Source: Lachnospiraceae bacterium
GTDB lineage: Bacteria > Bacillota > Clostridia > Lachnospirales > Lachnospiraceae
Length of the DNA stretch: 64,000 nucleotides
NCBI GenBank assembly: GCA_024403455.1
Contig: JAKSRR010000001.1
Coordinates: 1-64,000 of the forward strand
Direction: 5' to 3'
Positions 31,257 through 47,251 of the stretch are shown here, piece after piece. Numbering within the stretch: the stretch's first letter is position 1; every line of letters begins with the position of its first letter. A model generated the notes under the pieces. That model was not told the origin of the DNA, searched no databases, and saw only the letters and a list, made by a program, of their open reading frames with translations. Position numbers and translations under genes: made by a program.

Positions 31257-31287
31257 TATCTTGCCTTAATACTTTTTAGATACACGA

Positions 31288-31360
31288 GATTTCGACCTGC
31301 TTCGCACTCTCGAAATCCCTAAAAACATCCGAAACCCGCTCGTTTTCTTACGAAAACGGC
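31288..31360. repeat. Two hairpins in the leader of the GH3-like gene
   Basis: GATTTCGA / TCGAAATC (31288-31317) and CGTTTTC-TTAC-GAAAACG (31341-31358) lie side by side between the promoter and the start codon. They look like a small dispersed palindromic element or an mRNA leader structure; no second copy is in this window. Confidence 0.4.
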
Positions 31361-31396
31361 TCCTTTCTCATGTTATGTAACCTAATCTTTTCTGTA

Positions 31397-31426
31397 ATCA
31401 TACCACCAGCGCCGCCATAGACGCAA
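31397..31426 (-). promoter_or_regulatory. Sigma-A promoter of the GH3-like gene
   Basis: TTGCGT (31421-31426), 18 bp, extended -10 TGGTATGAT (TATGAT at 31397-31402) on the minus strand. It lies about 90 bp beyond the terminator of the upstream RNA gene. Confidence 0.55.
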
Positions 31427-31490
31427 GTTTAGAGCTCACAACATCACGATAAGCGCTATGTAAGCTCATTCCCTTTTCACACCAACCAAT

Positions 31491-31950
31491 AAAAAAGCCC
31501 CTGCCATCCGAATGTGTGCAAGGGCTTTCTACTTACGTTCGTCCAAAGGACTTTACCTCCTAATCATCACCAGTCTGTTTTCTCTTAAGGATGCTGGTGT
31601 ACTACTTATGCAATTGTTTTACTCTTTTCGATTCTACCTTCCAAAGAAATCTTTCCATCCAGACATACATCTTATGGTGATTATTCTTTTGTTCCTAACG
31701 GATAACCTATCTCATTCTAGCCTCATGATCCTATCATCTCTGGCGGTTGTTATCCCGGTCTTACGGAAAAATCTACTTCTTAAGTTTGATTAATGGTCCA
31801 TTGGACCGTACCTCCTTCTTCGTTTGAAAACTCATCATCAATTTATAGTAATCATACGCAATGTATGGAAGTTCCGGTTAAGGGATCCGGCACCTATTCT
31901 ATGTTTTCGTTGTTTTGTCCTCCTTATATCGTTTTATTGGTTGTTGTTAT
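31491..31950 (-). ncRNA. Candidate structured regulatory RNA with flagellin-leader mimic (possible CsrA or ribosome decoy)
   Basis: About 460 nt between a consensus promoter (31957-31984) and a strong terminator (31491-31529). Minus-strand frames hold no ORF of useful length. The 5' part has AAGGAGGACAAAACAA (31910-31925), identical over 16 nt to the ribosome-binding leader of the flagellin gene ending at 42718, but the ATG is ACG here. Two more AGGAGG motifs (31811-31816, 31556-31561) each stand 9 nt before a start-like codon of a 3- or 5-codon ORF. I count 14 GGA triplets. Hairpins include GGTCCAATGGACC, CATAC/GTATG, TGAT-AGG-ATCA, a GGATAAC/GTTATCC stem and CACCAG/CTGGTG. No RNase P, tmRNA, 6S, SRP or known riboswitch core was recognised. 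A decoy for CsrA or for initiating ribosomes is inference. The rest of the gene-free stretch 31257-32210 holds the GH3 leader and AT-rich DNA. Confidence 0.6.
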
Positions 31951-31956
31951 GTGACT

Positions 31957-31984
31957 ATTATATCTCTTCGCCATAAATTGTCAA
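31957..31984 (-). promoter_or_regulatory. Consensus sigma-A promoter of the candidate ncRNA
   Basis: Perfect TTGACA (31979-31984), 16-bp spacer, perfect TATAAT (31957-31962) on the minus strand. It is one of the two best promoters in the window; the other serves the tRNA cluster. Confidence 0.85.
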
Positions 31985-41899: not shown

Positions 41900-42718
41900 T
41901 TAACCAAGAAGGGACATAACACCCTGGTTAGACTGGTTAGCCTGTGCCAACATAGAAGTACCAGCCTGTGCAAGGATCTGGTTGTTGGAGTAGGTAACCA
42001 TCTCTTTAGCCATATCTGTATCACGAATTGCAGATTCAGCTGCTGTGGTATTTTCAACAACATTATCCAGGTTCTTAATAGTATGCTCAAGTCTGTTCTG
42101 TACAGCACCGAGATCAGATCTCTGCTTAGATACCTTCGCAAGCGCGGACTTAATCATGGAAATCGCTTTCTGAGCCTTTGTATTGTCTGTACCAGATACT
42201 GCTACGCCATCAATACCGATAGCAGATGCTCTCATCTCAGCAATCGACATGCCGATAAACTGGCCAGCTTCTGCACCTACCTGAAGATTCTTTCCTGTAA
42301 AGGATCCATCTAATAGGTTCTGCTCATTAAAGGTAGTCGTGGAAGCTACACGATCAATTTCAGAAACAAGTGCCTGTACTTCACTATCAATATATCCACG
42401 GTCTACACTAGTCATAGTATCATTAGATGCCTGGATAGCCAGAGTGTTCATTCTCTGAAGCATATCATGCACTTCTGCCAGAGCACCTTCTGCAGTCTGT
42501 ACGCAGGAGATACCATCCTGTGCATTTGCAGATGCCTGGGTTAAACCTTTGATCTGACGTCTCATCTTCTCAGAGATTGCAAGACCAGCTGCATCATCTG
42601 CTGCACGGTTAATTCTATAACCTGAGGAAAGCTTCTCTGTTGACTTAGCCTGAGAGCCAGTCGTAACATTAAGCATTCTGTTACTATTCATTGCCTGTAA
42701 ATTGTGCTGAACTACCAT
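41900..42718 (-). CDS. fliC: Flagellin A (contains a cysteine)
   Basis: 272 aa, a short flagellin with only the D0/D1 core. The N-terminal [35 protein letters not shown] and the C-terminal [17 protein letters not shown] are conserved. It differs from flagellin B at 12 positions, one of which is Cys72 ([10 protein letters not shown]) in the D1 helix. Flagellins almost never carry Cys. It is exported by the flagellar type III system and assembled into the filament. The FliA-type promoter is at 42811-42837, and the ribosome site is AAGGAGG followed by ACAAAACA. Confidence 0.97.
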
Positions 42719-42810
42719 TGTTTTGTCCTCCTTGAATATGACATTCCTATTTTTATCTGCATATGGTATTATCTGGCATCCGGTCTGTTCCGTCTTGCCT
42801 TACAATACAT

Positions 42811-47032: not shown

Positions 47033-47251
47033 TTAACCAAATAATTTCTTCAATGCATCTGGTGATGGTTCCGTCATAGCAGCCTTATTCGCTTCCTGAA
47101 TCTGCTGATATACTTCCTGTCTATAAATAGGAACATCCTTAGGTGCCGCAATACCAAGCTTCACCTGATCTCCTTTAACGTCTAACACGGTAATTTCAAT
47201 ATTGTTATTAATAATCAAGGACTCGCCTTTTTTTCTAGATAAAGCTAACAT
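47033..47251 (-). CDS. csrA: Translational regulator CsrA
   Basis: 72 aa from the ATG at 47251, one base past the fliW stop codon, with GGTGAG ahead. [20 protein letters not shown] is the family start, with L4 and R6 of the RNA-binding strand; [13 protein letters not shown] holds the conserved Arg near 44. CsrA binds GGA motifs and blocks translation of flagellin mRNA in Bacillus; FliW releases it. The fliW-csrA overlap and the flagellin leaders here support the same circuit. The extra C-terminal tail after the core is short. Confidence 0.96.

Follow-up and report, generated by a model that had tools for sequence, protein, structure and literature searches.

We describe here a predicted RNA encoded in the genome of a Lachnospiraceae bacterium that belongs to a stand-alone, structured and apparently so far undescribed RNA family, and that, with the chances about evenly balanced, serves to dock ribosomes serially, as a decoy or as a sensor. 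The unit of this family is a strong Shine-Dalgarno (SD) sequence followed by GGUAYRGWCCR and a micro-ORF frame, and the RNAs have consensus promoters. Most inner units have no start codon but keep an in-frame stop, while the last unit has UUG or AUG, an Asp or Glu codon, and a stop abutting the terminator. Taken as a whole, the RNA looks made for engaging ribosomes, and not CsrA, the flagellar regulator.

The window, by which we mean the entire 64,000-nt stretch of DNA that was analyzed, carries the RNA between genes for homoserine dehydrogenase and a GH3 hydrolase (Pfam). Its features are collected in Table 1. An earlier note on this DNA had described a promoter-terminator unit without a real ORF, and this description was confirmed: a TTGACA/TATAAT promoter and a stem with a T-run enclose the unit, and no sense ORF of at least 60 aa lies inside it. 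A 93-aa ORF at 31512-31793 is on the opposite strand. The two micro-ORFs, of 3 and 5 codons and each starting 9 nt after an AGGAGG, also read as had been reported.

Table 1. Features of the RNA locus in the window (31491-31984, minus strand).
Feature	Position	Strand	Remarks
Sigma-A type promoter	31957..31984	-	TTGACA 31984-31979, spacer 16 nt, TATAAT 31962-31957
Expected transcription start of the RNA	near 31950	-	from promoter position
Whole RNA, ~460 nt	31491..31950	-	promoter and terminator; same layout in genus homologues
AAGGAGGACAAAACAA, flagellin-leader-like 16-mer	31910..31925	-	within an insertion; 14 aligned relatives lack the insertion
Internal unit, AGGAGGTACGGTCCA + ATG GAC CAT TAA	31790..31816 (micro-ORF 31801-31790)	-	second copy of the 3' model
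Final unit, AGGAGGTAAAGTCCT + micro-ORF	31529..31561	-	start codon inside GUCC-NUU-GGAC hairpin
Final micro-ORF, TTG GAC GAA CGT AAG TAG (M-D-E-R-K)	31546-31529	-	
Intrinsic terminator stem-loop, AAAGCCCTTGC...GCAGGGGCTTT, T-run after stem	31494..31528	-	stem directly 3' of the micro-ORF stop

In this RNA the SD-like sites are unusual and the number of GGA triplets is ordinary. AGGAGG is present three times, as the earlier note had it (31924-31919, 31816-31811 and 31561-31556), and three or more copies arose in only 4 of 2000 dinucleotide shuffles (shuffle mean 0.29). Allowing up to 2 mismatches, AGGAGGTANRGTCCNNNGGAC occurred at two places in the window, both within the RNA (0.01 expected), and the internal unit matched a covariance model of the 3' module as a second copy (31766-31827, E 2.8e-5). 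We counted 15 GGA in 31491-31950 rather than the 14 previously given, with 12.6 ± 2.3 expected; 412 of 2000 dinucleotide shuffles had at least 15. The proposal that the point of this non-coding transcription unit lies in its ribosome-site-like motifs held up. The 16-nt match to the flagellin A leader is real and exact: with at most 1 mismatch, AAGGAGGACAAAACAA was found in the window only within the RNA and at 42718-42733, before the flagellin ATG. None of the 14 aligned relatives, which lack the insertion that contains it, has a GGA there, and most have an AACAAC..GUUGUU hairpin at the site, so the suggested flagellin mimicry was not upheld.

An initial DNA search of 60 genomes (the window's own included) gave two short matches beyond the window, both with the same layout. 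GGAGGTANRGTCCNNNGGAC was found exactly in 15 of 35 genus genomes, again counting the window's own, with 0 for the reversed control; none of a further 294 genomes from the order contained it, and a covariance model was needed to see the RNA family. The 15 genus sequences (alignment A1) align from promoter to terminator, with TTGACA invariant in all rows and with the SD, the TTG GAC start, the in-frame stop and the stem directly after the stop all kept. Scanning a collection of 84,980 species with GGAGGTANRGTCCNTTGGAC yielded 52 stretches, five of which (L020, L036, L052, L061 and L065) were dropped as chance. The remaining 47 came from Lachnospiraceae or from MAGs so labelled, one being titled Eubacteriales and one only Bacterium D16-50, and carriers included Anaerobutyricum hallii, Acetatifactor muris and a Blautia MAG. 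These stretches hold 49 motif places, 46 of which have a TTGACA..TANNNT box no more than 700 nt upstream; in A. hallii the box lies further upstream, and the other two stretches (L045, L050) begin too near the motif for its presence to be judged.

We then used R1, a covariance model of the 3' module made from 29 sequences. Within the genus it matched 32 of 35 genomes at E≤0.1 and 26 of 35 at E≤1e-6, some of these having trained the model, and four genus matches (L098-L101, E 5e-4 to 0.03) were dropped as not family-like on reading. Among 299 Lachnospiraceae genomes from 298 genera, 95 matched R1 at E≤0.01. A broader model of 75 rows, R2, was run on 40 R1-negative genomes and matched 27 of them at E≤0.1, seven at E<1e-3. 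Thirteen R2 loci were read: the multi-unit layout was seen in the seven loci with E<1e-3 and in L152, four loci (L150, L151, L154 and L156) resemble chance matches, and units without a proper 3' end were seen in L153. Beyond Lachnospiraceae, the RNA is carried by three genomes of one genus of a neighboring family that we label f8. Order matches outside Lachnospiraceae numbered seven, of which five were read and one was real; a further outside search gave 16 positive genomes, and reading one match in each of 10 gave 3 real ones, in f8. A phage origin was rejected: there was no match among phages and the start-less pattern occurred in 0 viral contigs, while the final-unit pattern occurred in 4 (two with the same flanks), at other sites and with the layout absent. 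Some genomes hold two copies of the RNA, as in L026, L030 and L063 (3.4 kb apart on one contig; 0.9 kb apart; an opposite-strand pair).

Rfam 15 contained no match to the RNA of the window up to E=10, so the RNA belongs to no known family there. Rfam likewise had no family for the RNA of the first two relatives and none at gathering score for 20 homologous loci; the A. hallii RNA matched sbrA only, on the opposite strand and at 18.6 bits versus a cut-off of 45.

The start codon of the last unit lies about 9 nt 3' of the SD, in a GUCC-NUU-GGAC hairpin that shows some covariation. Across 75 model-aligned modules (alignment A5) the start was TTG in 62 and ATG in 13, and codon 2 encoded Asp or Glu in 74, the exception being AAC (Asn) in L097. 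Measured from the terminator stem, which was looked for as far as 45 nt past the start, the stop codon lay at -2 to +6 nt in all 75. A set of 90 unique pattern-matched modules had TTG in 77 and ATG in 13, with GAC (57), GAT (25), GAG (6) or GAA (2) as codon 2; because the pattern demanded T/ATG followed by the G of GAN and, in one search, a stem near the stop, the start, the G of codon 2 and the nearby stem are there by selection. Their micro-ORFs have 5-11 codons and end in TGA (37), TAG (30) or TAA (23), with a final Val in 33 of 90; over the family as a whole the length of the last ORF runs from 4 codons (f8) to about 11. Weak members break these rules, with ATT as codon 2 in L147 and GGA in L152, and with a last ORF that extends into the terminator stem in L148.

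The reading frame of the last unit is constrained. In 113 related pairs, all 42 changes in codon 2 were at position 3. A frame-0 stop within 33 nt was present in 45 of 45 unique exact-motif modules (the cut-off L071 and repeated modules having been dropped), compared with 27 and 26 modules for the two other frames and a mean of 23.8 and maximum of 36 in shuffles, which ignore kinship. Past codon 2, changes at positions 1, 2 and 3 numbered 86, 124 and 131, and 63 codon differences were synonymous and 168 non-synonymous, both counts being over non-independent pairs. There is thus no third-position excess beyond codon 2, and the body of the peptide is not visibly constrained.

A redundant set of 99 RNAs gave 155 distinct units, 82 with a start codon and 73 without. 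In 54 of the 73 start-less units the start is replaced by CCN, whose CC is complementary to the GG of the SD. An in-frame stop was nonetheless kept within 18 nt in 63 of the 73, against 31 ± 4.2 and a maximum of 45 in shuffles (kinship ignored). Since these shuffle controls take no account of kinship, the strength of the comparisons comes from the agreement across many genera. The internal unit of the window has start-less counterparts in the 14 aligned relatives, with CCN (12) or AAG (2) in place of its ATG and with the in-frame TAA. The longest array that we read, that of A. hallii, consists of eight start-less units and then the last unit, and six of the eight correspond roughly to a 55-bp tandem repeat (6.3 copies). 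In the f8 RNAs, by comparison, all three units have ATG or TTG micro-ORFs in all three genomes; between two of these (G186 and G119) the micro-ORFs differ by four synonymous changes (GAG/GAA, TCC/TCT, CGT/CGG and TAA/TAG) and two non-synonymous ones (GTA/ATG and TGC/ATC). The predicted accessibility of the SD averaged 0.35 in start-less units versus 0.45 in units with a start codon. Folding of GG..CC could, by prediction, hide the SD in many start-less units (mean own-hairpin pairing 0.43, 39 units), and some of these units have GGAAGG or GGAUGG, a weaker SD. In one RNA (L127, genome G466), GCARUACNNNARGUARUGY-like repeats form an array in the stretches that separate the units.

The family RNA is structured and its body diverges fast. 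The layout is kept in related Lachnospiraceae, and the terminator stem and start hairpin covary. All 9 terminator pairs showed two-sided changes in A5, which was fitted to the model, with 98.5% of cells paired; for the terminator stem and start hairpin together, in the same model-fitted alignment, 97.8% of cells were paired and two-sided change was seen in 222 cells versus 62.5 shuffled. One sub-group has a GUAACG/CGUUAC helix and then a GUAC-loop-GUAC hairpin (variants GUAU/AUAC and GUGC/GCAC); in 15 rows picked by the helix itself, 2 of its 6 pairs had two-sided change, in 4 cells versus 0.6. One locus, L131, was left out of alignment A6 for its long insertion. We also counted motifs in 71 non-redundant RNA bodies (23.6 kb, and including L138, E 7e-5, although it is unlike the RNA on reading) against shuffles that ignore kinship. 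GGAGGTAC occurred 37 times versus 0.5, an excess of about 70-fold, GUACNNAAGA 30 times versus 1.1, AACTGAAT 16 times versus 0.5, and GUAC 202 times versus 57.5. With the units cut out, GUAC was still found 149 times versus 49, and AGGAGG 32 times versus 15. A AACTGAATA-like sequence lies upstream of the last SD in many family RNAs, f8 included.

The anatomy of the RNA, its conservation and the constraint on its frames are established by these comparisons, and from them we infer that it engages ribosomes. We prefer a ribosome-docking RNA because frames are preserved whether or not a unit has a start codon, which visiting ribosomes explain best. The units would bind 30S subunits, which the earlier note had also named as a possible target; start-less units would hold the subunits or pass them along without initiation, and the last unit would initiate, make a throw-away peptide and release the ribosome at the 3' end of the RNA. 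The RNA would thereby act as a decoy or as a gauge of free ribosomes, and the passage of ribosomes over the last ORF could set its 3'-end folding or its stability. Against docking, many of the inner SDs may be hidden in hairpins, the GUAC repeats and AACTGAAT are unexplained by it, and the peptide body is free. The more specific idea, that tandem initiation-incompetent SD units plus one translated micro-ORF buffer or sense free 30S in a major gut-bacterial family, is one that we put forward tentatively, as a good deal less than an even bet.

The main rival, which we regard as rather unlikely, is a sponge for an RNA-binding protein that recognizes the unit, for example as a GG-A-GGU/ACC-A-CC hairpin with an ACRG loop, and competes there with ribosomes; free sponge would then be reported or limited through translation of the last micro-ORF. 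A variable number of units, up to 8 of them start-less, with a fixed motif would suit a sponge, as would the predicted own-hairpin pairing of many start-less units, the CC complementary to the GG of the SD in most of them, and the repetition of GUAC. Binding of a protein, however, needs neither kept in-frame stops nor the micro-ORFs with start codons seen in f8. Furthermore, GAGGTAYRGWCC occurred 47 times over 16 whole genomes, the RNAs' own copies included, versus 60 for the reversed pattern. With no genome-wide excess, no set of mRNA targets sharing the site is visible, so that we rejected such targets and consider a sponge with matching targets weakened.

It is also conceivable, at a clearly lower level of probability, that the locus is a micropeptide gene, in which what matters is a short peptide M-(D/E)-..., whose translation the long upstream part regulates. 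The start, the Asp or Glu codon, the stop and often the final Val are kept, while TTG and ATG starts and the three stop codons swap between modules. Such a gene is hard to reconcile with the lack of a third-position excess after codon 2, with lengths that vary from 5 to 11 codons in the 90 modules and reach 4 in f8, with inner units that are mostly start-less, and with neighborhoods that share no common gene cluster.

The function that the earlier note had favored, titration of CsrA by a CsrB/RsmZ-like decoy RNA that would release flagellin translation, is very improbable, and CsrA/flagellin mimicry is an unlikely role for the RNA. A csrA gene lies in the window at 47093-47251, and RNA and CsrA co-occur somewhat beyond expectation. 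CsrA was over the cut-off in 152 of 299 Lachnospiraceae genomes; at E≤1e-4, genomes with the RNA comprised 39 CsrA-positive and 23 CsrA-negative ones, versus 113 and 124 without it (odds ratio 1.9, p 0.045, kinship ignored). The association was 30 versus 13 at E≤1e-5 (odds ratio 2.5, p 0.008) and 55 versus 40 at E≤0.01 (odds ratio 1.5, p 0.11), kinship again being ignored, and is compatible with a secondary link. Nevertheless, 23 of 62 carriers are without CsrA, as are 10 of the 30 genomes reached via 30 of the 47 loci of the scan (the other 20 have it), and the A. hallii genome has no CsrA match. Incomplete drafts may hide some CsrA genes, but several of the CsrA-negative carriers are 97-99% complete. 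Of the 15 GGAs in the RNA of the window, only 2 hold their alignment position in all 14 relatives, and both belong to the SD/start element; for 6 more, a GGA lies within 6 columns in 9-13 of the 14. The GGA motifs are thus not conserved as titration would lead one to expect. Family-wide enrichment of GGA is real but small, about 15-16%, and far below that of the unit, as the roughly 70-fold value for GGAGGTAC illustrates. In the 71 RNA bodies GGA was counted 651 times versus 568 ± 16 in shuffles and ANGGA 291 times versus 227 ± 15; outside the SD units the figures were 588 versus 508 ± 16 and 241 versus 198 ± 13. This modest excess leaves room for a side role of CsrA. Altogether, the sequence observation of the earlier note was confirmed and its interpretation was partly supported. 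The genome of L045 (G606, the Blautia MAG) has six CsrA-domain matches, several of them in frames of 120-209 aa.

Least probable of all is a cis-acting leader or attenuator whose terminator is blocked when the micro-ORF is translated, so that transcription enters the next gene: the stop touches the terminator stem as in attenuator leader peptides, and a same-strand GH3 homologue comes next in 18 of 49 scan places (second in one more), but in 16 of the 49 the nearest ORF downstream with 100 aa or more runs on the opposite strand (same strand in 27, none within the available sequence in 6) and the neighbors other than GH3 differ. A leader role is thus unlikely as the shared function. The uORF attenuators treated in the consulted part of PMC11109978, which covers ilvB and fthC uORF motifs, resemble the RNA in having an SD and a short ORF with its in-frame stop next to an intrinsic terminator. 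As in uORFs, SD, start and stop are conserved here, whereas a constant downstream gene on the same strand is lacking. Compared with the attenuators in that part of PMC11109978, the family often has several units per RNA, its inner units are mostly start-less, and no run of regulatory codons was seen.

Other systems share parts of this design. CsrB, CsrC, RsmY and RsmZ are stand-alone RNAs that titrate CsrA through repeated SD-like motifs. The RNA of the window resembles them in standing alone and in repeating SD-like motifs, with a modest excess of GGA; unlike them, its family strongly repeats GGAGGUAYRGWCCR together with a micro-ORF frame, is present in genomes without csrA, and ends in a conserved micro-ORF. 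SgrS/SgrT and SR1/SR1P are dual-function RNAs, in which a regulatory RNA also holds an ORF, and an ORF within a candidate regulatory RNA is what we see here too, but one of 4-11 codons, with serial units and a largely free peptide. The large structured ncRNAs OLE, ROOL, GOLLD and HEARO are long, stand-alone and lineage-wide, and the present RNAs are like these and raiA/ModT in being long, stand-alone, structured and lineage-wide; they differ from all five in their unit architecture and have no Rfam match.

Lachnospiraceae are prominent bacteria of the human gut and the rumen, and roughly one in three of the genera sampled has the RNA, preceded by a consensus promoter. Should the RNA dock ribosomes, it would represent a regulatory RNA of a new type, with the initiating ribosome as its ligand; should it not, some other reason must be sought for a series of start-less micro-ORF frames whose stops are preserved. 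Carriers are available in culture (A. hallii DSM 3353 and Acetatifactor muris DSM 23669), making a direct test feasible. The parts of the literature consulted, including those of PMC11109978, PMC8040213 and PMC2864571, describe no such RNA, although an unlabelled candidate in supplementary lists is possible.

Between the terminator and the GH3 gene, close to the former, the window also has a match to the Rfam Clostridiales-1 RNA (RF01699) at 31278-31443 on the minus strand, with 48.2 bits versus a cut-off of 48. The consulted part of PMC2864571 lists this RNA as 'Clostridiales, human gut'.
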